Part shown: positions 649 to 53,576 of the stretch, piece after piece
Layout: every line of letters begins with the position of its first letter
Numbering within the stretch: position 1 is the first letter of the stretch
Source: Undaria pinnatifida
Taxonomy: Eukaryota; Sar; Phaeophyceae; Laminariales; Alariaceae
DNA length: 64,000 nt
NCBI GenBank assembly: GCA_012845835.1
Contig: JABAKD010000029.1
Coordinates: 15,355,453-15,419,452, forward strand
Reading direction: 5' to 3'
The notes under the pieces: generated by a model
What the model saw: the letters and a program-made list of their open reading frames with translations, nothing else
The model's database searches: none
What the model was told of the DNA's origin: nothing
Program-made: the position numbers and the translations under genes

Positions 649-1777
649 AACACGGACTTGTTTTCGCGATTTATTATTGTGAGAACAGCATGGCAATTCC
701 TCGAGCTACAGCAGTGTACCTGTTACGTAGGCAATACCTGTTATATATACCAGGTCCACACATCTGGGGTCGGGGCGTGATGAGGGCAGTCAAGGGGCTT
801 GAACCGCATAGTACTTTGAGGCGACGCCGAGCATAGTTTGTCCTCGAGAGATCGACTCCTGGTCGTACACGAACCACCAGTAGTACCTGTTGGCGTAACT
901 CACCCACGCACCCACACCAACCCAATTAGTGCTGGTATTCAACTTGAAAAGTGTGTTGATGTGATTATTGCTTATTTGGGGGAAAAGTTGCTTGGTCAAG
1001 CATGTTCGTTGCTTATTTAAGCAAGTTCCGTGAGTTTACAAGAAAAGCGATGGCCGAAATCGGGTACACCCGATTGACATATGGCCGTCATCGGGTACCC
1101 CTTGAACACACAGTCCCACAACGACTCAGGACGACATCTCATTGGTCGAAACCACACCGCATCCGAACGCAGCCGCATGTCCATCGGGTGTACCCGATTA
1201 TGGCTGAACAAGTCCTCGACATGTACCCGACTCGCATACAAGCCACCCGATTATGGCCGGACTACTCGACCACCAGCCCACACGCACACACGCACGCGCA
1301 GAGTTCGAGGCGGGGCATTGTTTGTTCTTTCGTCTCGGAGCTCTTTTTTTCCGGAGCTTTTTTTTGTAGACCTCGAAGTCGCAGTTAGGCCATTTCTTAT
1401 GCAGTCGGATACCGCCAGTCGAAAACGGCCCTTTTCGACTGGACTTTTTTTCGACTGGATTCTTCTGGTCCTTCTTCTTATCGTCAGTCGAGCCGATTTC
1501 TTATTCTTATCGTCAATCGAGCCGATTTTATAGATTTTGTTCTCTTCCTAGAGGCGGTTGGTGTGAGGGAGTACTGCTGTACAGCAGTCGAGAGCTCTTT
1601 TTCCGGAGCTCTTTGTTGTGGCTTGTGAGACCCCGCTCCGCTCACGCCGGCGCGCCTAACCACAGCCACAGCAGTAGTGATGTGCGACAACGGCCACAGC
1701 CGCCTGGCCAGGCGCAGGCCCTCGAGGAAGGAGCGTGATTTCAAGACACGAAGAGCCTACGAACAGCCGCGGGCGAG

Positions 1778-2224
1778 ATGTTCGCCGAGGCAGGGTGCTC
1801 TTTCGTCGCCAGCAGGAAGGGCGGCGGCCGCCAAAACATGTACCTGTGTTCTGGGCACACCACAGGCTGCCAGGCACAGGTGCGAGCCTGCAACAAGCAA
1901 AGTGGAGACGAGTGGCGTGTACACACAGTCAACACTACGCACACCAACTGCTCTGGAGGTAAAACCCCGGGGAGGTCGGCTGCGTTCCAGCGCGTCGCCA
2001 ACCAAGCCTTCAACGACAACCCTCATCTCCAGGGCGTGCAACTCAAGAAGCAGATCAAGAGAGACTTAGGGGTCCCGGTCAAGCACAGAGTCGCCACTAC
2101 CATGAAGAACACCGCGAAGACGGCAAGCCAGGCCGTGGTGCTCGGAGCGAGCACCACGACCTGGCTTGCCGCCTTCGCGGTGTTCTTCATGATAGTTGCG
2201 ACTCTGCTTGACCGGGACCTCTAA
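1778..2224 (+). pseudogene. MULE-like transposase N-terminal fragment, left palindrome arm
   Basis: This open frame of 148 codons starts MFAEAGCSFVASRKGGGRQN and encodes a zinc-binding module with the order C-x6-C (CSGHTTGC), then W, then H-x2-C (HTNC). It is followed by a basic/helical segment that includes FNDNPHLQGVQLKK. That arrangement is characteristic of WRKY/GCM1-superfamily (FLYWCH/FAR1-like) fingers at the N-terminus of MuDR/MULE transposases. The frame runs through the palindrome centre into antisense sequence, so its C-terminus is not a natural protein end, and no catalytic DDE domain is present. I treat it as a truncated transposase gene. Confidence 0.6.
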
Positions 2225-2677
2225 GTCTCTCTCGATCTTTTTCTTGAGTTGCACGCCCTGGAGATGAGGGTTGTCGTTGAAGGCTTGGTTGGCGACGCGC
2301 TGGAACGCAGCCGACCTCCCCGGGGTTTTACCTCCAGAGCAGTTGGTGTGCGTAGTGTTGACTGTGTGTACACGCCACTCGTCTCCACTTTGCTTGTTGC
2401 AGGCTCGCACCTGTGCCTGGCAGCCTGTGGTGTGCCCAGAACACAGGTACATGTTTTGGCGGCCGCCGCCCTTCCTGCTGGCGACGAAAGAGCGCCCTGC
2501 CTCGGCGAACATCTTGCCCGCGGCTGTTCGTAGGCTCTTCGTGTCTTGAAACCACGCTCCTTCCTCGAGGGCCTGCGCCTGGCCAGGCGGCTGTGGCCGT
2601 TGTCGCACATCACTACTGCTGTGGCTGTGGTTAGGCGCGCCGGCGTGAGCGGAGCGGGGTCTCACAAGACACAACAA
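2066..2677 (-). pseudogene. MULE-like transposase N-terminal fragment, right palindrome arm
   Basis: This is the mirror copy of the left-arm fragment on the opposite strand, 203 codons long because the frame stays open further upstream. The zinc-finger part is nearly identical to the left copy (R replaces C in the AEAG-S segment; K replaces Q and E replaces K near QLKKKIERD). It too crosses the palindrome centre and ends in antisense sequence, with no DDE catalytic region. Near identity of both copies suggests recent formation or gene conversion between the arms. Confidence 0.6.
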
Positions 2678-3569
2678 AGAGCTCCGGAAAAAGAGCTCTC
2701 GACTGCTGTACAGCAGTACTCCCTCACACCAACCGCCTCTAGGAAGAGAACAAAAACTATAAAATCGGCTCGACTGACGATAAGAATAAGAAATCGGCTC
2801 GACTGACGATAAGAAGAAGGACCAGAAGAATCCAGTCGAAAAAAAGTCCAGTCGAAAAGGGCCGTTTTCGACTGGCGGTATCCGACTGCATAAGAAATGG
2901 CCATAACTGCGACGTCAAGGTCCACAAACCAAAAGCTCCGGAAAAAAAGAGCTCCGAGACGAAAGAACAAACAATGCCCCGCCTCGTGACGTGGTGCGAG
3001 TTCGCGCCCGCTGCGCGTGCGTGTGTGCGTGTGAGCTGGTGGTCGAGTAGTCCGGCCATAATCGGATGGCTTGTATGCGAGTCGGGTACATGTCGAGGAC
3101 TTGTTCAGCCATAATCGGGTACACCCGATGGACATGCGGCTGCGTTCGGATGCGGTGTGGTTTCGACCAATGAGATGTCGTCCTGAGTCGTTGTGGGACT
3201 GTGTGTTCAAGGGGTACCCGATGACGGCCATAGGTCAATCGGGTGTACCCGATTTCGGCCATCGCTCTTACAAGAAGTTGCTCAGTTAAGGCCACGGGGG
3301 ATTGATCGCACAGGGACATTTTGAATAGGAGCTGGTATGGAGGCATTTCGCGTACATGTAAAACCGCTTGAAATTAGACTGGTTTGTGCGAACAAGATCC
3401 TTATGTCGAAGTTGTAGAAAAAATGCAGCAAATATCGAGTAATGCAGAGCTGTTCAGGTGCCTCTAGCCCTTTTTTTGACTCCATAACTAGCCACCCCTT
3501 CGTCGAGTGTCCCTCTTTTTTTCTCCCAAGACCCACGCCAGACAACGAAGCGAGTTATATCATCCGCCT

Positions 3570-4184: not shown

Positions 4185-4857
4185 TTAAGCATGCTTACTT
4201 GCTTATTTGCAGCAAAATTTACTGTTTTCTAATAAAGAGGAAGGCGTTTTTATGTCGGGATCGGCGCACTCCCACCACACACGGCACACAGCCAGCAAAC
4301 AGCGAACCAGCGCACACAGCCGTGACACAGCACAGCACATGGCACATAGCAAACAGACCACAGGTACCGGGTCACACCGTAGTGGTGCCTTCAGCGTTTG
4401 CGGTCGTCGGTTGGTGTAGTGAGTAGTGCCGAGAAGGGCTGCGAAGCAACGACTAGGGCCTCCGTTCAGCCAGGGCCGGCGACAACTCCAGGCGAGGGTC
4501 TGGGTGAGCGTCCCGGTGTACCTTCGGAGTCGGATGAGGACCATTTTAGTAATTTTGAAGAAGATTTTCGAGACGAAAGCAGCGACGACAGAGTGAAGCA
4601 GATCGCGAAGCCCCCTGCCCTCGCCGCTGGCGTAGCCAAGTCTAACTTCGGCGACTCGCCGTGCCGCGAAATGGCAAAAATCGAGTCAGAAAGAGTTGCC
4701 CTTGAATGTGCTGTGCCACGGCTGTGCGCTGGTTCGCTGTTTGACGGCTGTGTGCTGTGTGGTGGGAGTGTGCCGATCCCGGCATGAAAACGCCTTCCTT
4801 TTCATTGGATACAATGAGTGAATTTTGCTGCAAATAAGCAAATAAGCATGCGTAACT
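4185..4857. mobile_element. nested inverted-repeat element (~670 bp, arms ~160 bp)
   Basis: The left arm (about 4185-4345) reads GCATGCTTACTTGCTTATTT, then GGCGTTTTTATGTCGGGATC and CTCCCACCACACA. It is repeated in reverse at about 4695-4857. The interior (about 4400-4690) holds a plus-strand frame of 129 codons with an acidic serine-rich segment (SESDEDHFSNFEEDF). The arms identify a small non-autonomous DNA element that probably inserted into the larger composite element, or forms its right subterminal part. Confidence 0.75.
4398..4787 (+). pseudogene. acidic ORF inside the nested inverted-repeat element
   Basis: A 129-codon frame whose central part (residues about 40-70) is acidic and serine-rich and is followed by a lysine/alanine-rich segment. 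The last ~30 codons lie in the element's right inverted arm and are therefore not independent coding sequence. Acidic, Asp/Glu/Ser-rich N-termini occur in several transposase families, for example piggyBac, but no catalytic domain is present, so the identity is unknown. It could be a remnant of a captured or deleted transposase gene. Confidence 0.3.
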
Positions 4858-5213: not shown

Positions 5214-8200
5214 ATGAAGTGCGCCGCTTTTTTGCTCGCGGGAGGGGTGGTATGTGCCCAGGCGTTCTTGACGGCACCCCTTGCTTCCACTCGTACCCCG
5301 ACAGCCGTCTCGAGCGGGGCTTCCCGGGGAGCCCGGTTGAGCATGGCGGCTGTATCGGAATTGCCGACCCAGGTAAGCGGGTATAAACTTTGCTGCTTAT
5401 AACTCGTTTAAGTCCTGCACAACAGCTGAGCAGAAACTCGTGTTTCGACTCGTTTTTATCATGTAGGCTGTCCACAGACCGCGGAGTGCTCTGCTAAAGC
5501 TCCGAATATTCCCGCCTTGGATCGTTTTAGGGTTAGCTATAGACTCCAGCAGTTGTTGTTGACATCACCCTATTACGTAGCAGCTGATTGCCATGTTCTT
5601 GCGCGTGATCGCGGCTACTGTAGGCGCGAGGAGCCCAATACACAACCAAACCCAGGTAGGTAGGAACACAAACCAACCAAAAAATAGTCGGGTTCCCAGG
5701 AAGATAGCCAACTCCACGATCTATCATAGCACAGAAACACGAAAGAGAGACAGTAAGTGCTGCAGCAGTACTGCTGTAATTCCGATGTTCGCGCGGCTAC
5801 CCCCCCCGAACTCCCCTCCCTTAACTTCCCGAGGTTGTACGATTGTAGGAGCGTTTTGGTTCCTGTGCTGTCCTATTAGTAGCGCGTTCAGCCCGTTTAG
5901 CGTTAGTGGATGTGGGGCCTTTTACACCCGTTTTATTTGCAAGCGGAACGTGTGCAAAACGCGGCACGCCCGGCTGCGACGTCTGCTGTTGGCGGCGGCG
6001 TCCTTACGGGCTGCCTGGCGTGCCGCATTTTCTGCGCCACACCAACTACTGCACTGCTGCACTACTGCACTACTGCACTAGATCAAAACAGTACCTGGTA
6101 TCAAAACAAGGGTCAAAGGCCTCGCACCCACAGAAGACAAAGGGGTTGGATGATACAGGTAAATACGCCTCCGCCACCCACTGAGCTATTAATGGCATTG
6201 GTGGTATCTATCGGGAAAATACACGGGGGTTGGATGTTAGGGATACACGATAGACACATGGACACTGAGCTAGCTAGCATCAGCAAAGACAAGGGTTTGA
6301 TATTAGAGACACACCATGACAAGGGTTGGATATTAGAGACACACCATACAACCACTGAGCTGAGCTATTAACTGCAGCCAGCGCTGACTGCTGTTCGCAG
6401 CTCAGCTCAGTGGTTGTATGGTGTACCTGGTGCATCGCTAAGAAAAGCTCACCCCGGGGTCTTGTCTGGCGGTTGAGCCTGGACCTCGGATTTGCCCAAG
6501 GGTTACGATCTGTTCAGCTAATAATAGCGCTGTCTGCTATGCTGTGCTATGCTATGCTATGCTAGCCCACTGTTATGGTGCGCACCTGCAGCAGACGAGA
6601 GTGCTCCCTTTATAGTGCCGGTATGTGCACTATAGAGGGAAATATCGGCACTATAGCGGCAACCGGCAGTACTCCGCATACTGCCACGACTGGTTGCTCT
6701 CACCTGTGTCATACGATTTCGCAAGCACTGTAGCGGGCAATCGGCACTACAGAGGAACCTTGACTGTCATTCAAAAGTGAACGCGCGAGGCCAGCGCGGG
6801 AGCCAAGAACCGCACAAAGGGGGAGTTTGAGAGGAGCCGCCGCGTGATTTTCACATCTGCAGATTGTTTCCCTTCGCCTGGTGTACTCCTATGTCCGCGG
6901 CAAGTCCGCGGTGTATTACGTTTGGGTTATAGCGCACAGCGTTATGGTGCATGGTGGTGCATGATGGAGCGGTGGTGGAGGCAGAGCCTCACTGTCATTT
7001 TAATGCTCGAAAGACTCAGTCCTCCTGTACGTATCATGTACATGGTATAATGTAATATGTAACGCTATACGAAACATCCGAAGGCAATGAGGATAAAAAA
7101 TGCATAGTTCATCCGATTGTTTAGTGAAGAACAATCTTGTTACCATCTTTAACGTATCTGAGCCTCGGATTGTTTATCTCTCGCATTCTAATGATCCTGC
7201 CATGGATAATAATAGTGATAGCTCAAGACAAAGGCGACTATTACGAGGGTCGAAAACAGAAAGCAAGACAGGATTTCCCCTTCATGATGTTGAAACCTAT
7301 ACAGTCGGTGGAAGTCTTGGTTTTGGGTGCCGCAGCAGCCAAAAACTGTTGTTCCCGCACACATCACCTCCCACCGCCGCCGATTCCTCGCACCCCAGGG
7401 CACGAGATGACGTCAAACCTTCGAGGCTGCATGCTCCACTGCTCTTGAGAGTGCTCGTTGCGAAGTTTGAGGGGCGGCGATGCGATGTGTCTTGAGTTTT
7501 TGGTCGCGACGTTGAGAGCCTGACCCATTTCTGCACGTTTATTTTTCAGGCGGAACTGGGATGGAACTGGGCTCCAGTTCCGTCTTGGAAAAACTCGTAC
7601 ATAAATGGGTCAGGCTCTCACGTCTCGAGCGATACCTCCGGCTACAGAACATCGCCGCCCCTCAAACTTGGCAGCGAGAACTCTCAGAAACGGCGGTGGA
7701 GCATACAGCATCGTACAAGGGTTGATGCAATCTCGAGTCCTGTGACGCGATACATCATCGGCGGTGGTAGGTGGTGTGTGCGATTTTGTGTTTCGGTCTG
7801 GGCGGTGAAGGGAAATAGCTCATGTTTACCGACGGCGCTGCCCTTGGGTTTCTACACGATGAAGGGAAATTATGTTTTTCTTTCTTCTGTTTTCGTCTCC
7901 CATAAAAGTCAGCCTAAGGACACAAAAAAACAACATACCAGGTACGGGGAACGGCATGTCGATGCGTTTCGTCGGGGGCAATATCACTAGTACTCTTAGC
8001 ATAAGTGGCCTTTTTCTACTCGAACCACTACGGTATTGCCCATCCTGCCAACCGCCACTAGCGATGCTACTAGTTAGACTACCATAATAATACTTGTTTT
8101 CATCGTTTATGAGAGCAAACCATCTCCCGAAATGACTGGTACAGGTTCGAAGGGATTACCTCTGTCGTTGCTACTGAAAAATTAACCTATAGTATTTCGA

Positions 8201-11200
8201 AGTAGTTTTACCCCAAACACGGGGTGCACTTGTAACGGAGATGACGCTTTTTTCACTGCAACAACTCTCCTTAGACTACACCTTGACAACTGCTGTGTCC
8301 CCAACGCGCGGAATGCTTTTATTTCGCCTCTGCAAGAATGTCCCTCACTATTTTGAAGTAATTTATACCCGAAAAGCCGGGGGGCAGTAGGCGCATTTCA
8401 GCCCCTCAGCCGTGAGCTCCAAGTTTTTTTTCGCAACTCGTATTCGCAAGCTGCGTGTTCTACTAGGATACAAGTCAACAAAGGTTGTGTTAGTATCAGT
8501 ATACCAGTAGATTCAGGGCGATGATGATAACAAATGCATAGTTCATCCGATTGCTTAGTGAAGAGCAATCTTGTTACCATCTTAAACGTATCTGAGCCCA
8601 GGGTGTTGTGCTCATCTTTTTGTCTACGTGCGTCCGTGCAAAGGTGTTTTAGTTTTCCTTTTTTTGTTTTTGTTAAGTTTGATTCTTGTTTTCTTTTTAC
8701 CGAATTTCGTGTCAACATTGAAGGCGCGGCTTTAGTGCTCTGCGAACACGCTCTTCGTTCGTTAAAACAAAAACACGTTATTGCTGGGGCTGCGCGTTGT
8801 CTAGGTATTACAGTTATCCCCTTTTAGTAGCAACAACTCTACGGTACGAGATACCAGTAGATCCGAAGGCAATGAGGATAAAAAATGCATAGTTCATCCA
8901 ATTGTTTAGTGAAGAGCAATCTTGTTACCATCTTAAACGTATCTGAGCCTTCGGTGCTTTATTTTAGCCTTTTATCTACGCGCAATCTACATGCACGCGT
9001 GCGCGTGTGTGATGCCTGTGGCGAATTTTATATTGACGTAGTGTACATAGTGTATAGTAGTGTATAGTAGTGTATGAGCCCCCCCAGTTGTGAAGGGGTC
9101 GGCGTGCGAAGAAGGTTTTACAGCAATCATGTACCAGAGGTACCAAACATGTTGGAGTTGCTCCCACCATCGACCTATTACTAGCAGCGTAGTCCCACTA
9201 TTAATAGCGCACAGGGACCCGACAAGTCCTTTCGAGCGGAGCGAGCCACTAGTTTACCGGCGCAGTCCCACTAGCACGCTCGGACCGACACATGATACCA
9301 GTGCAGTGCCACTAGCACACGCGGACCGCAACGCGACTTCGAGCGGAGCGAGCCACTTGTCTGTCTACCAGTCCAGTCCCTCCAGCATATGAGCTCGCTC
9401 TCAGCAGCACGAGCTCACACACAGCAGCACTCCAACACAGGTGCTCACACAAAGCAGTAAATGGCAACGCTCTCACACATACACATCAGCATACAAGCTC
9501 ACACCTACCGTAACTGACACAAGATAACACACCCCGGTGATAACATTTTGGGATTCGAAAATATTATCACCGGGTGTGGTATCCTGTGGGGGGTGTGATA
9601 TCTTGTGTACCACGGGTGATAAAGTGCAGCTCGCAGGGGGCCCAAGGGGGGTGTGATAAACCAGGGGGTGTGATAGGACGTCCGAACACCCACAAGGTGT
9701 GGGGGTGTGTTACGCAGATACACCACGACCAAAAATCGAAGCCACAAACCACACACAAATCTTCACTACGATATCACCGGGGTGTGTTATCTCATGTATA
9801 CCCCGGGTTATAAATCGATGGTTTGTCAGAAACGCCCAAAATTATCACCGGGGTGTCGTATCCTGTGGGGGGGGTGATTTCTTATGTACAGGTGATATCT
9901 TGTGTCAGTTACGGTACGGTATATCAATCTGGTTCTCACCGAACTTGCAACTGCTCACGTACAGTCGTATGGAAACCCTCCTAACATCGTCCGCATATGC
10001 TTTCCACTTTTTGTTCGAAAACGGCGAAAAAAAATGCGCCCTGGGCTGAAAATGCGTGTGCCCCGGTGGCATGCGCATTAAGATATTGTGGAAACCCCTA
10101 TTGTGATATTTTTGACTGCTGTTGCTGGTGGTGGTGGTGGTACTACCGCTGTTGCTGCGGCTCTCTGCTCTCTCGGCGGCTACGTCGTCGGCTCCCTTCG
10201 CCACCACTCCCACTCGGCTAACCTCGATTGGCTTCGAATCGTTCAAAGCCATGACTGTGCACAGCAGCGGCACTCCAACACGCGCGCTCACCCACGGCAG
10301 TGAACAGCCACGCTCTCACGCCTACGTACCAATGCACTCCAACGCAAACTCTCGCAGCATCGCTCTCACATCAACATACACGAGCTCACACAGCAACGCG
10401 CGCCCACACACAGCAGCACTGCAACAAGCGAGCTCACGCACTGTAGCATTGTCTTTTTTCGGTAGTGCCCGTAGCCGAGCGTAATACTCGTACACGACGT
10501 GGAACAGCGATGGGGACAGCATATACACCTTATGCTGGACGCCTAGCATGACTGTACGGGGCTCCACATTTTTGAAGGCGCCGGCGTTTTTTCTGCAAGA
10601 CGTTAGATTTAGTTTGAGACGCAAGTTATACGAAGTTGTTTGCTTCTAATGTACGGCGTACAGGTAGCACTGCAGCGCGAAGCGATATTTGTATCGCCAG
10701 GTGCAATAGGCGAGTGTAATAGGCGAGTGTGGGCTGTGACGAAGCAAAACGCATGCCAGGTATCAAGTACCAGTAGTTCATCTGATTGTGCCGTCAAGGA
10801 CTAGTCTGAGCAAATATCTGTCGCCCCTGTCTGAGCCTCAACGAAGGTGATATACCAGCATGTGATAGATACCCCCCCCCCCTCCATTTAAACGTGTACA
10901 GCAGCACCAGCTGCACCAGCAGCACCAGCAGTATTGTCTATTATCAGCATTGCTGATGGTGGAACTCAATGAGTGCAGTGTGTGAGTGTGTGAGTGTGTG
11001 TAGGGCAGCGCCGATGACAAGTATGTATACTCCAGTTTTGCTCACTATACAGCGCTGTTGAACTGGGCGCCTGTTTTTTGGGGGGCGGGGCGATTCATGT
11101 ATCGTGGAATTTTGGGACTGTAACGCGAGAAGCTTTTTATATCGCCGCGTGTATTAGACACGTAGGGGCTGTGACGACGCAAAATGCATAGTTCATCTGA

Positions 11201-14200
11201 TTTTCCAGTGAAGAACTAGTCTTAAGCAAATGTCTTTCGCTCCTATCCGAGCTCCAACGAACGAAGGTGGTAGATACAACCAATCAACCAATTCCCCCTG
11301 AAATACCGTAGCACTGCAGCAGGTCTGCTTGTCAGTTTTGTTTGTACCCGAGCGCAGTGCATGCAGAGCAGCACTGATGTCAGTATACGCCAGTTGTGCA
11401 TGCTTTACTCGCGCAGCGCTCTTGTACAGGATACGTTGTTCCTTAGAAGGCGTTTCTAATGCTATTCGAATTTGGACTGTAACAGGGCGAAATTATTTCG
11501 GTACTGGCTGGTATAGTGGCCGCGTAGGGGCTGTGACGAAGAACAATGCATAGTTCATCTGATTTTCCAGTGAAGAACTAGTCTTAGGCAAATGTCTTTC
11601 GCTCCTATCCGAGCCTCAACGAGTGAAATCTATTTGGTAGAGCTGCTTAATCTATCACACGTAGTATAACACGTATTGATAGTATTGACACGTTTCCTCA
11701 CATTTTCGGGGACGAATTTCGTTCCGTGCCTTTTTTCATGTGTAGAACGGTGTAACAGGCCTGCAGTACTGATCCTTTTTTTCAGCAGTAAAACGACCAA
11801 ACGGGATTTTGCAATACCAAACACAAAACAATTCGTGTGCTTACAGCAGTGCTGCTCGAAGCAGTGTAAAAGTTGTTATCTACCTGGTATATACGTGTCG
11901 CCATTTTGTTTGTTGCTCGTGTGGGTTTTGTTTGTAGGGCTACCTGGTAGAGATTGCCAGGATGTGGTATATTATAATGGCAGACAAATTCAGGCTGTGA
12001 CGAAGAAAAATGCATACGAAGTTCATCTGATTTTCCAGTGAAGAACTAGTCTTAAGCAAATGTCTTTCGCTCCTATCCGAGCCTTGCAGTTTTCCCATTT
12101 TTATCTGTGGCGGATTACCGCACTCCTCAAGTGCGTCAGCGCTATTCGTGTTTTTTTTGTTTCTGGTGTTGTTGGTTTGTTCTATTGATAGCGTTCGTGT
12201 AGACTTTCAATGCTTTCTTGTGCTTTTCGTTGTTCTAGAGTTGTGTACTCTTTACGTATATATGTCTGCTATCTTTCTTTGTTCTGGAGTTGAAAAAAGG
12301 AGACTGCTTCTTCCTGGTGTTGACAGAGTTACACCAAGTATCTGGCAGACTTGAGCTTGTGATGTTCTATTGAGCTATTTTCAATGCGTTAGCTGCGACT
12401 TCAATACTTTCTTTTGTAGGTATCGTCGATAGCGCACAAGTGGACTTTGTTTTTAGTGTGGGACCCCTTGGGTCTGTTGTGCCTCGGGCTTTGACGAAGA
12501 AAAATGCATAGTTCATCTGATTTTCCAGTGAAGAACTAGTCTAAGCAAATGTCTTTCGCTCCTATCCGAGCCCCGAGCCCCGTACGTGCACGCTCGAACG
12601 TTAAGGGGCAATTGTTGTACACCACACCATGGTACCTCGTATCGCAGGTCGAACTACTCTGTATGGCAGCTTTTGGCTGACGATCACTATTGGTATCACG
12701 CGCCATTTTTCAACGACAAGTCTTGGTTTCTTTAAAAACAAAATCCTTTCCGTTTTCCGACGAGCAATTTTTGATGGAGAAAACGTTTTTTTTTTTTTTC
12801 TTTGCTTGTCTGTCTTCTGTCTCGTTGGACCTCCTCCTTCTCCGTGTACCCAGGCCCAGCGGCAGCAGGCGTTGTACGACATGGTGTACGTGGAGCGGCT
12901 GCCCGAGGAGCAGCAGATGACTTCGGGGCTCTTTCTGCCTTCCAAAGAGAACCCGAGGATGCACGTTTGCAAGGTACGTCGTTCCGCACAACAGAAACCC
13001 GTCTAAAAGCACCCGATGCTAAATTGACCCGCGATACACAGCAGTATGTGGAAGTGGAGTGATGTTAAACCCTTAACTGTTAATACTAGTAATACATACA
13101 TGATAAGATGATGAGATTATGAGATGATAAGATGATGAGATGATCCCACAGTAGGAGCAGCAGATGACCCCGGGGGCTCTTGCTGACGTCCGACGCAAAC
13201 CTGCAGGTTTGACGTCAGGTTTGACGTTTGCAAGGTTCATGTGCCGCGCAAGGAAGTCGTCGTTTTGCCTGTGCAGTACGTATTGCGGTAGTATTCAAGA
13301 CGCAATATGGGTAGAAAAAACGGGGAAATATATTGGTTCGGGTGGGTATCGGGGGGTTCTGATCAAGTATGGGTAGAAGAACCGGGGAAATGCCCCGAGT
13401 ATAGGTTTTGGTGTGTATCGTGGGTTCTGCTGTTATGGTCTGTCGTAAATAGCTGCTTTATATGTACCCTGCTAGATTATGGCATGCATCTAGGACAAGC
13501 TTCGCCAGTATGGCTGAGATACGCTTGACTTTATCTTTTGAATTTCGTGGGCAACTTTCTCAGCAAGGGACATTCAGGTGTAATGGCAAGCCAATCATCC
13601 ATCCTGTAGAATTTCGCTTTCTCAGCGGTCCTTTTTTTTTCTCGGACCGGACGTCTTGTACGTTTTGGCGAGGACTATGCAGTACCAGTACTCGACCGCA
13701 CCGAACAGATTGCGAATTACCTGGTAGTCTTTTTTTTGGAGTTATAACCGATCGGGATTGCTAAAACTCTAATTGTGATCAATTGAATGATTTAATGAAT
13801 TAACTTCCGTGTTGAGGGAGGGCTAGTTGCACGAAAACATAACAGCATATCAGCCATCTTGTACATCTCGTTGCTCAACTTTTTTTTCTTCTCCGACCGT
13901 ACGATTTGGCTGTCACGTTCTCCAGGTTGTCTCCGTTGGGAATGGGCGAGAGGGAGAAAGCGGACACGTCACGCCCAACGACGCCGTTAAGCCGGGCGAC
14001 CTCGTGTTCGTTAAAGACCCCTACGGTATCGGTGAGCCCCGCCGCCCCCCGGTGAAACGCCTTTTCAATCATGAACCGGAGTACTTTTTTTTTCTTTTTC
14101 CTCATCCCATCTCCGTTTCCTGGTATCAGCTGTGCACTTTTTGGCCAGCCCCCTCTCTATTGATATAACTACTGGAATAACCTAACCCCACACTGACTCT

Positions 14201-14536
14201 AAGTAGTTTGGCCCAACAACCAGGGTGCGAAATGATGTGCGTATGCGTTTTTTGTTACCCTGTAAAACCCTAACCCTATTCTGTGCTGTTCCGTGATTTT
14301 GCTCTGTTGTGCCGCGGTTGTGCTGTGGCTTTGGCTGTGGCTATGGCTGTGGGATGGGACACGCAGGACCCCGAGACGACGAGTTCGCGGGGAGGAAGTT
14401 CTCGTTCGCTCGCCTGACCAGCATCTGCGCTGTCATCCCCGACTCCAAGGAGTTCGAAGACGCGGCAAGAGAAGCTGGCGCGTTGGCGGCAGAGATCGAG
14501 AAGGCCGCCGGCTCCGGCAGCGGTCTGGTGTTTTAA
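5214..14536 (+). CDS. plastid-targeted co-chaperonin Cpn10 (GroES-like), 4 exons, 184 aa
   Basis: Co-chaperonin that caps Cpn60 rings during protein folding, predicted in the plastid. Exons: 5214-5372, 12854-12973, 13926-14031 and 14367-14536. All introns are GT-AG with matching phases 0, 0 and 1, and the spliced length is 555 nt including the stop. Residues 1-53 form a bipartite presequence: hydrophobic signal MKCAAFLLAGGVVCAQAFL, then a Ser/Thr/Arg-rich transit part; the AQAF junction fits the stramenopile ASAFAP rule. The Cpn10 fold spans about 60-152: VYVERLPEEQQMTSGLFLP (strand 1 and mobile loop), VVSVGNG, VKPGDLVFVKDPYGIG, and a closing ICAVIP. A ~30-residue Ala/Glu-rich C-terminal tail extends past the fold. 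Only one Cpn10 domain is seen, unlike the tandem Cpn20 of plants. The first intron (7.5 kb) hosts eight snoRNA-like units. The start was chosen because it opens the signal peptide. The join of exons 1 and 2 is the least certain, because another exon could be hidden in the large intron. Confidence 0.85.
6601..6765. repeat. miniature element of the CTATAGTGCCGG family
   Basis: The segment contains several direct and inverted copies of the core CACTATAG / TAGTGCCGG (for example 6610-6622, 6630-6640, 6646-6656 and 6744-6754). It resembles the segment at 18048-18230. It is probably a miniature inverted-repeat element, but its terminal repeats are imperfect and its ends are approximate. It lies in Cpn10 intron 1. 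Confidence 0.5.
7076..7170 (+). ncRNA. C/D box snoRNA-like unit 1 (U80/snR60-like, class A)
   Basis: Terminal stem ATCCGAAGGC (7076-7085) with GCCTCGGAT (7162-7170) brings together a C box ATGAGGA (7087-7093) and a D box CTGA (7158-7161). Inside are TGCATAGTTCATC followed by a D'-like CCGA, and a C'-like AGTGAAGA. The D' guide complements GGTGAACTATGC of large-subunit rRNA. The sequence upstream of the D box (CTTTAACGTAT) does not match the usual U80 target. It lies in intron 1 of the Cpn10 gene, in the host orientation, so release by splicing and trimming is expected. Confidence 0.72.
7320..7800. repeat. fold-back element with 117-bp inner palindrome
   Basis: The core at 7508-7624 begins GAGAGCCTGACCCATTT and ends with its exact reverse complement, and its interior is also self-complementary around GGAACTGG/CCAGTTCC. 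Outside it, about 7320-7500 and 7625-7800 are a second, more diverged inverted pair (GTTTGAGGGGCGGCGATG against CATCGCCGCCCCTCAAAC). The structure suggests nested or layered fold-back elements. No coding capacity is convincing, and the whole lies in Cpn10 intron 1. Confidence 0.75.
8514..8603 (+). ncRNA. C/D box snoRNA-like unit 2 (U80/snR60-like, class A)
   Basis: This unit has a canonical C box ATGATGA (8521-8527) and D box CTGA (8592-8595). A GGGC/GCCC terminal stem flanks the boxes. The D' guide TGCATAGTTCATC and C'-like AGTGAAGA are conserved with the other copies. The D guide region CATCTTAAACGTAT is the class A variant. Its canonical boxes make it the best candidate for a functional class A RNA. 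Confidence 0.75.
8861..8955 (+). ncRNA. C/D box snoRNA-like unit 3 (U80/snR60-like, class A)
   Basis: An 8-bp perfect terminal stem, CCGAAGGC (8863-8870) with GCCTTCGG (8947-8954), flanks a C box ATGAGGA (8872-8878) and D box CTGA (8943-8946). The guide region is nearly identical to unit 2, but the D' box is degenerate (CCAA). The intact stem with a slightly non-consensus C box suggests either function or recent duplication. Confidence 0.72.
9508..9914. mobile_element. 407-bp MITE with TA target duplication
   Basis: The ends are CCGTAACTGACACAAGATA (9508-9526) and its exact reverse complement (9896-9914). Each is flanked by the dinucleotide TA (9506-9507 and 9915-9916), as expected for Tc1/mariner-type insertion. 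The interior has many sub-terminal direct and inverted copies of ATCACCGGGGTGTG and no coding potential. It lies in Cpn10 intron 1. Confidence 0.8.
10729..10841 (+). ncRNA. C/D box snoRNA-like unit 4 with internal insertion
   Basis: The C box is GTGACGA (10736-10742) and the D box CTGA (10831-10834). The D guide TGTCGCCCCTGT is a diverged version of the U80-like guide. About 22 extra bases (10754-10775, containing GCCAGGTATCAAGTACCAGTA) interrupt the segment between the C box and the D' guide. The insertion probably disables or alters this copy. Confidence 0.55.
11163..11257 (+). ncRNA. C/D box snoRNA-like unit 5 (U80/snR60-like, class B)
   Basis: The C box is GTGACGA (11171-11177), the D box is the non-consensus CCGA (11247-11250), and a five-pair stem GGGGC/GCTCC encloses them. 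The D guide GTCTTTCGCTCCTAT complements 15 bases of conserved large-subunit rRNA (ATAGGGGCGAAAGAC, one G-U pair). The D' guide TGCATAGTTCAT sits before a good D' box CTGA and complements GGTGAACTATGC. This combination is what I remember of the U80/snR60 family. Confidence 0.75.
11525..11619 (+). ncRNA. C/D box snoRNA-like unit 6 (U80/snR60-like, class B)
   Basis: The C box is GTGACGA (11533-11539) and the D box position CCGA (11609-11612), with a GGGGC/GCCTC stem. Both guides are identical in the pairing region to unit 5. About 70 bases of upstream flank also resemble unit 5 (GCCGCGTAGGGGCTG), showing that a larger segment of ~360 bp was duplicated in tandem. Confidence 0.75.
11990..12086 (+). 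ncRNA. C/D box snoRNA-like unit 7 (U80/snR60-like, class B)
   Basis: The C box is GTGACGA (11997-12003) and the D position CCGA (12077-12080), with a CAGGC/GCCTTG stem. A four-base insertion (CGAA) splits the D' guide after TGCATA, which should shorten its pairing with rRNA, while the D guide GTCTTTCGCTCCTAT is intact. Confidence 0.72.
12481..12578 (+). ncRNA. C/D box snoRNA-like unit 8 (U80/snR60-like, class B)
   Basis: A strong terminal stem, CCTCGGGC (12482-12489) with GCCCCGAG (12570-12577, one bulge), encloses a C box TTGACGA (12491-12497) and D position CCGA (12566-12569). Both guides are intact. It lies about 280 bases upstream of Cpn10 exon 2. Confidence 0.75.
13080..13150. repeat. 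GATGAGAT / GATAAGAT microsatellite
   Basis: Short irregular array of TGAGAT and TGATAAGA words in Cpn10 intron 2. No other structure is seen in this intron apart from a decayed second copy of the end of exon 2, near 13155-13240 (GAGCAGCAGATGACCCCGGG against the exon's GAGCAGCAGATGACTTCGGG). Confidence 0.6.
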
Positions 14537-49810: not shown

Positions 49811-52048
49811 TCACCCGTGGGGGTCGCTATCGCGGCAGCGGGGCGGCTGCTCACCATCGAGTTCCCCCCTCGGTCGTTTCCGACCTTTCACGATCTCCCT
49901 CTTTACCAAACTGTCCAATACACCGCTGCTGTTGTGCCAGGTGCTTGCAGTGTCCGCGACGACGGTGATTGGCACACCCCGTGCTGGCCTTATTGTTCTC
50001 CAGTCGTCTATTGCCCGTCCGTTGCGGACATTGACCATGCCAGCCTTAGCATGTTCCTTGCAGTACGCCGGTGTCTTGATGCCCTTCACGTTGAAACCCG
50101 GTCGCTTGCGGCAGGAGTCATGCGAGCAACGCTTGCCACGGACGTCCACCATGCCCTCGTCAGAGTGCTGCCTGCAGTACACCGGCGCCTTGTAACCCTC
50201 GAAATTAAAGTATGGCTGTTTCGTGCAGGAGTCATGCGAGCAACGCTTGCTGCGGACGTCTACCATGCCGTCCTCGGCGTGTTGCCTGCAGTACTTGACC
50301 GTCTTGCTGCCTTCGACATTAAAGCTTGGCTGCCGCAAGCAGGAGTCATAAGAGCAGAGCTTTCTGCGGACATCCATCATGCCCTCTGTGGCATGTTCCT
50401 TGCAGTACGCCGACGTCTTGCTCCCCAAAACGTATATTGCCCGTCCGTTGCGGACATTGACCATGCCAGCCTTAGCATGTTCCTTGCAGTACGCCGGTGT
50501 CTTGATGCCCTTCACGTTGAAACCCGGTCGCTTGCGGCAGGAGTCATGCGAGCAACGCTTGCCACGGACGTCCACCATGCCCTCGTCAGAGTGCTGCCTG
50601 CAGTACACCGGCGTCTTGTAACCCTCGAAATTAAAGTATGGCTGTTTCGTGCAGGAGTCATGCGAGCAACGCTTGCTGCGGACGTCTACCATGCCGTCCT
50701 CGGCGTGTTGCCTGCAGTACTTGACCGTCTTGCTGCCTTCGACATTAAAGCTTGGCTGCCGCAAGCAGGAGTCATAAGAGCAGAGCTTTCTGCGGACATC
50801 CATCATGCCCTCTGTGGCATGTTCCTTGCAGTACGCCGACGTCTTGCTCCCCAAAACGTTATAGCTTGCCTGTCTCGTGCATCTATCCTGCGAGCAACGC
50901 TTGGTGCGGACGTCTACCATGCCGTCCTCTGCGTGTTGCTTGCAATATATCGCCGCCCCGCCCTCAACATTGAAGCTCGGCTGCCTCGTGCAGGAGTCAT
51001 GGGAGCAGCGCTTATTAAGGACGTCCACCATGCCGTCTTCAGCATGTTGCTTGCAGTAAGCCGGGGTCTTCCTGCCGTCCACATTGAAGCAAGGACGACT
51101 CGTGCAGGAGTCGAACGAGCAGCGCTTGTACCCCATGTTCACCATCCCGTCCTCAGCATGCTGCTTGCAGAATAACGCCGCCTTGCCTCCCTCAAAATTG
51201 AAGAGCGGCCGTTTCCTGCAGAAGTCATGCGAGCAGCGCATGCTGCGGACGTCTACCATATCCTCCTGAGCATGTTGCGTGCAGTACAGCGCGGTCCTGC
51301 TGCCTTCAACATTAAAGCTCGGCTGCCTCATGCATTCACCATGCGAGCAACGCTTGCTGACGACGTTGACCATGCCATCCTCCGCATGTTGCTTGCAGTA
51401 CAGCGGCGTCTTGCTGCCGTCCACGTTAAAGTACGGACGACTCATGCAGGAGTCAAAAGAGCAACGCTTGTAGCCAACATTCACCATGCCGTCCTCAGCA
51501 TGCTGCTTGCAGTACAACGCCGTTTTGCTGCCTTCAACATTAAAATACGGGCGTCTCACGCAGGCGTCGTGCTTGCAATACTTTTTGCTGACGTCCACCA
51601 TGCCCTCCGCGACATGTTCCATGCAGTACACCGCCGTCTTGCTGCCCTCCGGACCAAAGCTGGGTTCCTTCTTGCAGGAGTCGTATGAGCAATCCTTGCT
51701 CATGACGTTTACCATCCCGTTCTCAGCATGTTGCTTGCAGTACACCGGTCTTTTGTTGCCGCCCACGACGCAAAAAACCGCAGTCAGTTGGCACTTCTGG
51801 TAGCGGCAAGTCTTCATTTTTGCCAGGGAGGTATGAACACGAAATGCCTCACGCAGCCCAGGAGTGCTGCGAGCACAGCTGGAGATTTCCGGGCCGGTGT
51901 ATGATGCACGCACACCTGTCGGTGATGGAATCGGCGTTGAACGCGGGTGTGAGGCAGGGATACTTTTTGCTTGGTTACCGTTAGTTGCCCATAACAAAGT
52001 CAGCCGGACGCAAACTGAAAACATGCCGTAAACAAATGTGTCCCCCAT
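49811..52048 (-). CDS. EsV-1-7 cysteine/histidine repeat protein, 745 aa, intronless
   Basis: The family includes the brown-algal developmental regulator IMMEDIATE UPRIGHT; its biochemical role is unsettled, and metal-binding modules are likely. From residue 80 to about 675 there are some 16 tandem ~38-residue units of the form C-x4-C-x16-C-x2-H followed by a 12-residue linker (for example CSHDSC, NVEGSKT, YCKQHAEDGMV). Unit 8 is one residue short in the x16 stretch and unit 13 lacks its first two cysteines. The N-terminal ~77 residues precede the repeats and include a weak hydrophobic stretch; Met78 (at 51817, within AAAATGA) is an alternative start directly before the first repeat. The last ~70 residues are basic (REIVKGRKRPRGE), possibly a nuclear signal. 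A 426-bp in-frame duplication created four of the units. Confidence 0.9.
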   Translation of the reverse strand: MGDTFVYGMFSVCVRLTLLWATNGNQAKSIPASHPRSTPIPSPTGVRASYTGPEISSCARSTPGLREAFRVHTSLAKMKTCRYQKCQLTAVFCVVGGNKRPVYCKQHAENGMVNVMSKDCSYDSCKKEPSFGPEGSKTAVYCMEHVAEGMVDVSKKYCKHDACVRRPYFNVEGSKTALYCKQHAEDGMVNVGYKRCSFDSCMSRPYFNVDGSKTPLYCKQHAEDGMVNVVSKRCSHGECMRQPSFNVEGSRTALYCTQHAQEDMVDVRSMRCSHDFCRKRPLFNFEGGKAALFCKQHAEDGMVNMGYKRCSFDSCTSRPCFNVDGRKTPAYCKQHAEDGMVDVLNKRCSHDSCTRQPSFNVEGGAAIYCKQHAEDGMVDVRTKRCSQDRCTRQASYNVLGSKTSAYCKEHATEGMMDVRRKLCSYDSCLRQPSFNVEGSKTVKYCRQHAEDGMVDVRSKRCSHDSCTKQPYFNFEGYKTPVYCRQHSDEGMVDVRGKRCSHDSCRKRPGFNVKGIKTPAYCKEHAKAGMVNVRNGRAIYVLGSKTSAYCKEHATEGMMDVRRKLCSYDSCLRQPSFNVEGSKTVKYCRQHAEDGMVDVRSKRCSHDSCTKQPYFNFEGYKAPVYCRQHSDEGMVDVRGKRCSHDSCRKRPGFNVKGIKTPAYCKEHAKAGMVNVRNGRAIDDWRTIRPARGVPITVVADTASTWHNSSGVLDSLVKREIVKGRKRPRGELDGEQPPRCRDSDPHG
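50009..50860. repeat. 426-bp in-frame tandem duplication within the EsV-1-7 gene
   Basis: The copies are 50009-50434 and 50435-50860. They differ at very few positions, such as GGCGCCTTG against GGCGTCTTG (Ala/Thr). The length is 142 codons, so the frame is kept. The breakpoint falls inside a repeat unit and produces the hybrid unit that lacks the first cysteine pair (NGRAI joined to YVLGSKT). Confidence 0.95.
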
Positions 52049-53576
52049 CCCCGGTATGAAAAAAAAGGCTTCAATACATCAGTGGAAATCCTGACAAACC
52101 GGGGGTTGATGCAATTTGTTCACTCCCAATGGATTGTACTGCTTAATCCCGGTTGTTACCGAAACAACGCCTACGTAACTCCAAACGGTGAAAACACGTA
52201 GTTACCCCAACGTAATTTTATTTATTCACGTAGCATTCATCCCTGGTTTAAGGGCGTCGCAAACGTTTTTTTGTCCAACTTGCTTTCGGCCGTGTCTCGC
52301 ATTTCGCCCTCGTCAAACCGTGGCCGTGGTCACAAGTCACAAGGCACAATCGACATCCTGTACGAGTACGTAATCAAAACAAACAACAGGGACACTAGAA
52401 TGCAGCAAGGCTGCCTTCGGTACTTAGGGTTCGGTACATGTACAGCGGGAAAATCGGACTTCCGGAGGAACACCGCCATTTCATCTCCACGCACGGTATC
52501 GTACCGTGTTTTTCATAGGCGCTCAGTGTCTCACGTTAAACATCGGTTGGACAGACTTCAAGCTGGGCCAGCCATAAAACGCACGATCAATCATGCAGTG
52601 GTATCTCGTGAAGCACTGCGAGTTGGGATATGAAGTTCGAAGGGCTTACCCTGACACCTTGGCATATACCAGGTATGCAACAAATGATAACAGTTTCGCT
52701 CGATCTCGCCGAGATATGCATAAATACTCCAAAAGATGCATATTTTTCATTTCTAGCCGACTTTTAGATCCCAAAATCCTATTACAGCTCCAAAAATAGT
52801 CGTTCTCGATCAAGGGCGAAGTTTGATAGAGACGCTACTGGGTACACAGGGAGAAGATCGACATCATATTCATTGCCCAATTTGCCACCCACCACGAGAT
52901 ATGGCGAAAACAATCATCCATACTTTCATCACGTGGAACGAGAAAATGGTACTTAGTACATACTTCGATGCCCTGCTGACTTTTTCGAGTTGTGATACTG
53001 GAGACTAACACCGTATTCCTACTCGTGACGCCTGTGCGAAATAATGTCGTTTCTGGCTACTACACAAAAAAGATAATATATATATATATACTTTTCAGAT
53101 GTGAATTAGAGTCACGTTTCTTTTTCTTGGGCTGTATTTTGGTCATATGAAGCATCTTTCGACAAAAAAACAAAACAAAAGAGACGGAACGACGCGTTTT
53201 GGTTGGTACATGAACACCGTGTCAAAACTTCATGTCCTACTTCGCAAAGTTGGGCGAAGCGTGGTCGACCTCCCGTTCCGACAAGGTCTTGGCTGGCCCA
53301 GCTCGTATAAAATCCGCTGGACGATATTTTCTCTGCCGAGCTATTTTTTTTAACAACCCCGTCAAGCCTATCAGCATGATATATATCGTCTCCCTCGAAA
53401 GTGTAAATTATCGAATGTCTTGCGTTCACTCTCACCCCAACCCCCCCAACATATTTGACCAAGCAACCGAGTTTGAAAACAATCGAAAGCTACGAAACCC
53501 GACACGGATTATGCCCCAAACGAACATCATTGAAAAAAAAAATGTGTACATACATATGGTACCCTAGTTATTTATT
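52049..53576. other. non-coding stretch upstream of the EsV-1-7 gene
   Basis: This should contain the promoter of the minus-strand EsV-1-7 gene, but I see no clear TATA or initiator element. Small open frames on both strands are not protein-like. One TACCWGGTA word occurs at 52667. Confidence 0.35.

Follow-up and report, generated by a model that had tools for sequence, protein, structure and literature searches.

A stretch of 64,000 nucleotides from the brown alga Undaria pinnatifida (assembly GCA_012845835.1, contig JABAKD010000029.1, positions 15,355,453 to 15,419,452, forward strand), called the window here, raises the question of what the eight similar units inside the long first intron of a co-chaperonin gene are, and how many of them can still do the work of their family. 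An earlier reading of the same letters, the original prediction, had proposed box C/D small nucleolar RNAs (snoRNAs) of the snR60/U80 type. Judged from the sequence, the intron very probably hosts a polycistronic snoRNA array, the eight units being local duplicates of one snR60/U80-family C/D snoRNA. The family match, the box order, the guide complementarity, the sense orientation in a well-supported intron and the constraint on the unit bodies were all computed here. The units were named A1-A3 (class A), X4 and B5-B8 (class B), and are listed in Table 1.

The units were compared with the Rfam covariance model RF00309, whose gathering score is 41 bits. The four class B units exceeded this score, the three class A units fell slightly under it (E values from 7e-4 to 2e-3), and the matches in these seven units were full-length. 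X4 gave no RF00309 match up to E = 1 and reads as a pseudogene. On these scores, membership of the snR60/U80 C/D family is claimed for B5-B8, and A1-A3 are regarded as relatives; the family identity put forward for all the units was therefore confirmed for class B, narrowly missed in class A and lost in X4. The sense orientation was borne out, with all eight units on the plus strand. The C'-like box said to be common to the units, AGTGAAGA, was present in seven of them, while X4 has CGTCAAGG. The D-box position is shared as predicted, but its letters are split between CTGA (A1-A3 and X4) and CCGA (B5-B8). Matches to mir-24, mir-36 and other Rfam families in the intron scored far under their gathering values and were dismissed.

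The host gene has four exons and an open frame of 184 amino acids, and all its introns are GT-AG. Two or more sense units in one spliceosomal intron make an intronic snoRNA cluster, and here eight lie in a single one. Exons 1 and 2 join in phase 0, and their junction (ELPTQ/AQRQ) is read through identically by a protein of Ectocarpus, which was the best relative of the host protein among 22 proteins from 1174 candidates (77% identity over 100% of the query); the proposed placing of all units inside one intron was thus upheld. Further relatives named by the protein search came from Ascophyllum, Laminaria and Sphacelaria. The intron separates the presequence from the mature domain of the protein. 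The host had been called a plastid co-chaperonin gene: the Cpn10 domain was recovered (Pfam PF00166, 39.8 bits against a cut-off of 21.1), and the plastid location is probable, judged from the AQAF presequence common to the host protein and Ectocarpus P0001, which we take to be plastid-directed. A coupling of plastid protein folding with ribosomal RNA (rRNA) modification was also suggested and was set aside; the host genes of intronic snoRNAs are reported to change over evolution (PMC3511168).

The unit bodies are alike while their surroundings mostly are not. In local alignments, identities ranged from 84/88 to 94/100 among B5-B8 and from 76/82 to 90/94 among A1-A3 (93-96%). The 150-base flanks mostly scored less than 22, the value that marks the 95% point in 300 random pairs from positions 12901-40000 of the window; this point was reached in 4 of 56 comparisons (A1-A3 right, 22; A2-B7 right, 25; X4-B5 left, 24; B5-B6 left, 28), with about 3 expected. 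In the 8-pair terminal stem, 79.7% of the cells were paired (1 of 500 shuffles was as high), two-sided changes occurred at five of the eight pairs (12 of 500 shuffles), and the covariation score was reached by none of 500 shuffles and none of six slid structures, these shuffles taking no account of the relatedness of the units. When the stem halves were re-paired among units, 245 of 40320 arrangements were as stable as the units' own stems, the true pairing counted. The terminal stem, predicted for all, was clear in six units and weak in X4 and B7, where 8.6% and 12% of random intron pairs, respectively, were as stable. The computation shows that the unit bodies are under constraint.

The D guide of class B, GTCTTTCGCTCCTAT, is exact in all four units. 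As predicted, it pairs with ATAGGGGCGAAAGAC of the large-subunit (LSU) rRNA, over 15 bases without a break and with a single G.U pair included, and its score was reached by none of 100 shuffled guides. The pairing was found in the alga's own LSU fragment and in all six foreign LSU pieces covering the site, although the own stretch (L011) and the foreign ones (L013-L019) had been fetched by patterns with most of the D target, which is present there by construction. Rfam recognised L011 and L014-L019 as LSU rRNA but not L013. The own fragment (L011, 7790-8065, minus strand; C26, own genome) has 276 bases and holds both snR60 target sites; the original prediction had staked its guides on complementarity to the species' own rRNA. 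At the LSU site AUAGGGGCGAAAGAC, pairing was found for the D guides of B5-B8, not for those of A1-A3, and X4 was mismatched (14 of 100 shuffles as good). The D' guide, TGCATAGTTCAT, directed at GUGAACUAUGC, is intact in six of the eight units and pairs with the own fragment. Thus the claim that all eight share the guides was too broad: B7 and X4 have an interrupted D' guide, and the LSU D guide is absent from class A. A foreign LSU site considered for the interrupted D' guide of B7 was rejected, as the pairing was no better than chance (equalled by 17 of 40 shuffles).

According to the +5 rule, methylation falls on the base paired to the fifth guide position upstream of the D' or D box. The family sites would then be the second A in GUGAACUAUGC and the second G in AUAGGGGCGAAAGAC. 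B5, B6 and B8 would serve the two of them, B7 only the G site, and A1-A3 only the A site because their D guide has lost its LSU match. The snR60 targets are listed as Am815 and Gm906 in a section on the snoRNAs of the last eukaryotic common ancestor (PMC3511168).

In class A, the positions of the C, D', C' and D boxes are kept, and beside the canonical CUGA stands the D guide TTACCATCTTwAACGTAT, in one version common to A2 and A3 and in a single-base variant in A1. The covariance alignment matches this guide to that of the family through substitutions and a loss, and the pairing with the snR60-family LSU site is gone. Its best pairing in 15 rRNA pieces (14 foreign pieces matched by Rfam and the own LSU fragment) was at chance: 71 of 100 shuffled A1 guides did as well, and so did 62 of 100 for A2/A3. 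The result was in agreement with an earlier run on 11 stretches (27 of 40 and 32 of 40 shuffles), which comprised nine of the 14 foreign pieces, the own fragment and L013 in full length, dropped later as not rRNA by Rfam. The D side of class A is either idle or aimed at a target outside the pieces scanned.

A narrower form of the array reading, compatible with it, is that of a birth-and-death remnant in which activity is confined to one or two of B5, B6 and B8, while the rest, all of class A included, are decaying. This is a serious possibility, if not the one we would favor: X4 is clearly broken, as is the D' guide of B7, class A has neither an LSU D guide nor a target above chance, and the D' box of class A drifts to CCGA or CCAA. 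However, A1-A3 have retained their boxes, D' guide and terminal stem despite mostly diverged flanks, and the C and D boxes of A2 are fully canonical. It is rather unlikely that class A was instead re-aimed, its new D guide methylating another rRNA site, a small nuclear RNA or a messenger RNA. The near identity of this guide in three units beside an intact D box would fit such a change, as would the divergence of most flanks, even with the A1-A3 right flanks at the 95% null. Its pairing at chance in the rRNA pieces speaks against it, and recent duplication or gene conversion could also explain the conservation of the guide.

The letters of the kink-turn (k-turn) formed by the C and D boxes were inspected as well. 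All eight units have the tandem G.A letters and the three inner pairs of the stem. We assigned C.C to 3b.3n of class B, C.U to that of X4, G.U to that of A1 and A3 and U.U to that of A2, so that seven units deviate from U.U and A2 is the sole canonical one; -1b:-1n is C:G and 4b:4n is G:C in all eight. Archaeal box C/D k-turns favor U:U at 3b:3n, and C:G at -1b:-1n favors folding in ions, while G:C at 4b:4n is the box C/D-like state, contrasted with the ion-folding C:G (PMC5689011). Moreover, C at 3b allows folding in metal ions except when 3n is G (PMC4382518). Because of the rule for 3b and the C:G pair at -1b:-1n, the class B k-turn could fold without protein, a prediction carried over from other k-turns; ordinary box C/D k-turns, in contrast, need protein to fold. 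The G:C pair at 4b:4n counts against protein-free folding. A bolder proposal is that, in the array, an ancient snoRNA with two guides has been divided among subclasses of different function, class B with a C.C k-turn that could fold protein-free and class A with one LSU site and a new D guide for another target; we consider it doubtful. N6-methylation at the D box was set aside, since it requires C at -1n (PMC5579392) and G was found in all units.

The D' motif with at most one mismatch occurred at no fewer than nine places in 511 Mb, at least six of them exact and three with one mismatch, these counts being lower bounds. The motif search overlooks copies like B7 and X4. Every exact copy found lies in the host intron. 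A reversed-pattern control gave nine matches too, which leaves the three one-mismatch places outside the intron within what chance would produce; they had no RF00309 match up to E = 0.1. Judged by the D' motif, the array appears to be unique in the genome. These results bear on whether a mobile or gene-conversion process of snoRNA size might have spread the unit bodies without selection for function, which we hold to be improbable. The ending of similarity near the unit borders agrees with such copying, and snoRNA mobility has been documented (PMC3511168). However, exact D' motifs were not found outside the host intron, within the limits of that lower-bound search, and the two-sided changes in the terminal stems also argue against it.

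For the array, the following course may be proposed. One snR60/U80-family C/D snoRNA would have been duplicated locally into eight units, which would be transcribed together with the co-chaperonin precursor messenger RNA and freed from the intron. Since even the last unit, B8, is separated from the 3' splice site by 276 bases, and the rest by more, release of the inner units would need internal cuts. The C/D proteins would bind the released units at the C/D k-turn, and the units would direct 2'-O-methylation of LSU rRNA. Several observations weigh against this reading. No RNase III-like release hairpin was found in the four spacers tested (fold z of 0.45, -0.03, -0.23 and -0.33 against shuffles). 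Re-pairings of terminal stems within a class were as stable as the own stems in 21 of 720 arrangements, further pair types in the stem were unremarkable (138 of 500 shuffles), and the stem model was derived from the same sequences on which it was scored. Both the D box CCGA and the C box UGACGA of class B depart from the consensus. The D' guide, predicted to complement the LSU rRNA, does pair with GTGAACTATGC of the own fragment, but by pairing alone it was no better than shuffled guides, 44 of 100 of which scored as well, so that the claim for it rests on family homology; its full target was present in the own fragment and in one of the six foreign LSU pieces (L017), with TGAACTATG in two more. 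The LSU target itself was read from an isolated fragment, no further rRNA match being found within the 18 kb examined, and intact ribosomal DNA seems to be missing from the assembly, because an 18S pattern had no exact match there. Finally, an action of the array in cis on the splicing of its host intron, for instance through a snoRNA-related long non-coding RNA (sno-lncRNA) or intron retention, is very improbable; sno-lncRNAs can arise from two snoRNAs in one intron (PMC11028025).

Table 1. Positions in the window of the snoRNA units, example guides and host gene parts.
Feature	Position	Strand	C box/D box	Description	Support
Unit A1	7078..7169	+	UGAGGA/CUGA	D' guide TGCATAGTTCAT; altered D guide	RF00309, 38.9 bits, below gathering
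Unit A2	8512..8603	+	UGAUGA/CUGA	canonical boxes; D' guide as A1; altered D guide	RF00309, 36.8 bits, below gathering
Unit A3	8863..8954	+	UGAGGA/CUGA	D' guide as A1; altered D guide; 8-bp terminal stem	RF00309, 36.7 bits, below gathering
Unit X4	10727..10842	+	UGACGA/CUGA	decayed; 20 extra bases in D' guide; C' box broken; D guide mismatched to LSU	no Rfam match
Unit B5	11162..11258	+	UGACGA/CCGA	two intact guides	RF00309, 64.4 bits, E 8.2e-9
D' guide of B5	11185..11196	+		TGCATAGTTCAT, example of the shared D' guide	pairs with GTGAACTATGC of LSU fragment
D guide of B5	11232..11246	+		GTCTTTCGCTCCTAT, example of the class B D guide	pairs with ATAGGGGCGAAAGAC
Unit B6	11524..11620	+	UGACGA/CCGA	two intact guides	RF00309, 62.6 bits
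Unit B7	11988..12088	+	UGACGA/CCGA	D guide intact; 4 extra bases interrupt D' guide	RF00309, 48.8 bits
Unit B8	12482..12577	+	UGACGA/CCGA	two intact guides; 276 bases upstream of 3' splice site	RF00309, 58.0 bits
Host exon 1	5214..5372	+		signal/transit presequence with AQAF; ends ELPTQ	aligns with Ectocarpus P0001 over full length
Host intron 1	5373..12853	+		7481 bases, GTAAGC...AG, phase 0; contains all eight units	
Host exon 2	12854..12973	+		start of Cpn10 domain	by itself below Pfam cut-off
Host exon 3	13926..14031	+			protein comparison and splice model
Host exon 4	14367..14536	+		includes stop codon	protein comparison and splice model

Other features were observed in and around the host gene. 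Positions 7330-7800, which lie in the host intron between A1 and A2, fold back on themselves over a great length, though imperfectly (z -17.6 for an RNA fold of -283.7 kcal/mol). This may be a foldback element or an inverted duplication, from which long double-stranded RNA would arise. Directly upstream of exon 1, an element-like stretch (4185-4855) has inverted arms of 39-61 bases at 84-92%. Further upstream, a near-perfect large inverted repeat (1043-3269) with arms of 701 and 259 bases, 98% complementary, is perhaps a transposon-related palindrome; two of its open reading frames were tested and had no Pfam match. On the minus strand, a 755-amino-acid open frame (49811-52078) contains 16 stretches of the EsV-1-7 cysteine-rich motif (PF19114, E 9e-213), a family typical of brown algae.

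These are RNA genes of a known family, and it is the expansion into an array that is unusual. Like RF00309 snosnR60_Z15 (yeast snR60 and plant AtU80, with vertebrate U80 as a relative), the units match over the full length, follow the order C-D'-C'-D and share the D' guide GCATAGTTCA, class B also sharing the D guide. They differ by their eight copies in one intron and by the changed D guide of class A; moreover, the RF00309 consensus boxes are UGAUGA and CUGA, compared with UGACGA and CCGA in class B. A single intron of a protein gene also houses several snoRNAs in plants and in the RPS27a cluster of Plasmodium (PMC2656528), and intronic snoRNA clusters of Chlamydomonas are similar, as known from a reference title in PMC5122169. 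In the array described here, a single family makes up all eight units, hosted by a plastid-type co-chaperonin gene of a brown alga. A small-RNA study of Ectocarpus reports program-predicted snoRNA loci, and in its excerpted text single loci are not given (PMC4513859). Such an array was not described in the listed titles and abstract openings of work on brown-algal and stramenopile snoRNAs, on snoRNA clusters and duplication, or on chaperonin hosts. With this locus, brown algae gain a candidate host gene for snoRNAs. It is a compact natural experiment in dividing a dual-guide snoRNA, with intact, one-guide and altered-guide copies in one intron, and in one subclass, class B, a joint change of the C and D boxes has altered the k-turn pair on which folding depends. 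In mammals, the SNORD113/114 and SNORD115/116 units sit in repeated introns of non-coding hosts, whereas here eight units share one intron. The mammalian arrays resemble the present one in that a single C/D family has multiplied locally and formed subfamilies, but they comprise hundreds of units with orphan guides (PMC11028025), while the array of U. pinnatifida has eight, most of which keep their rRNA guides.

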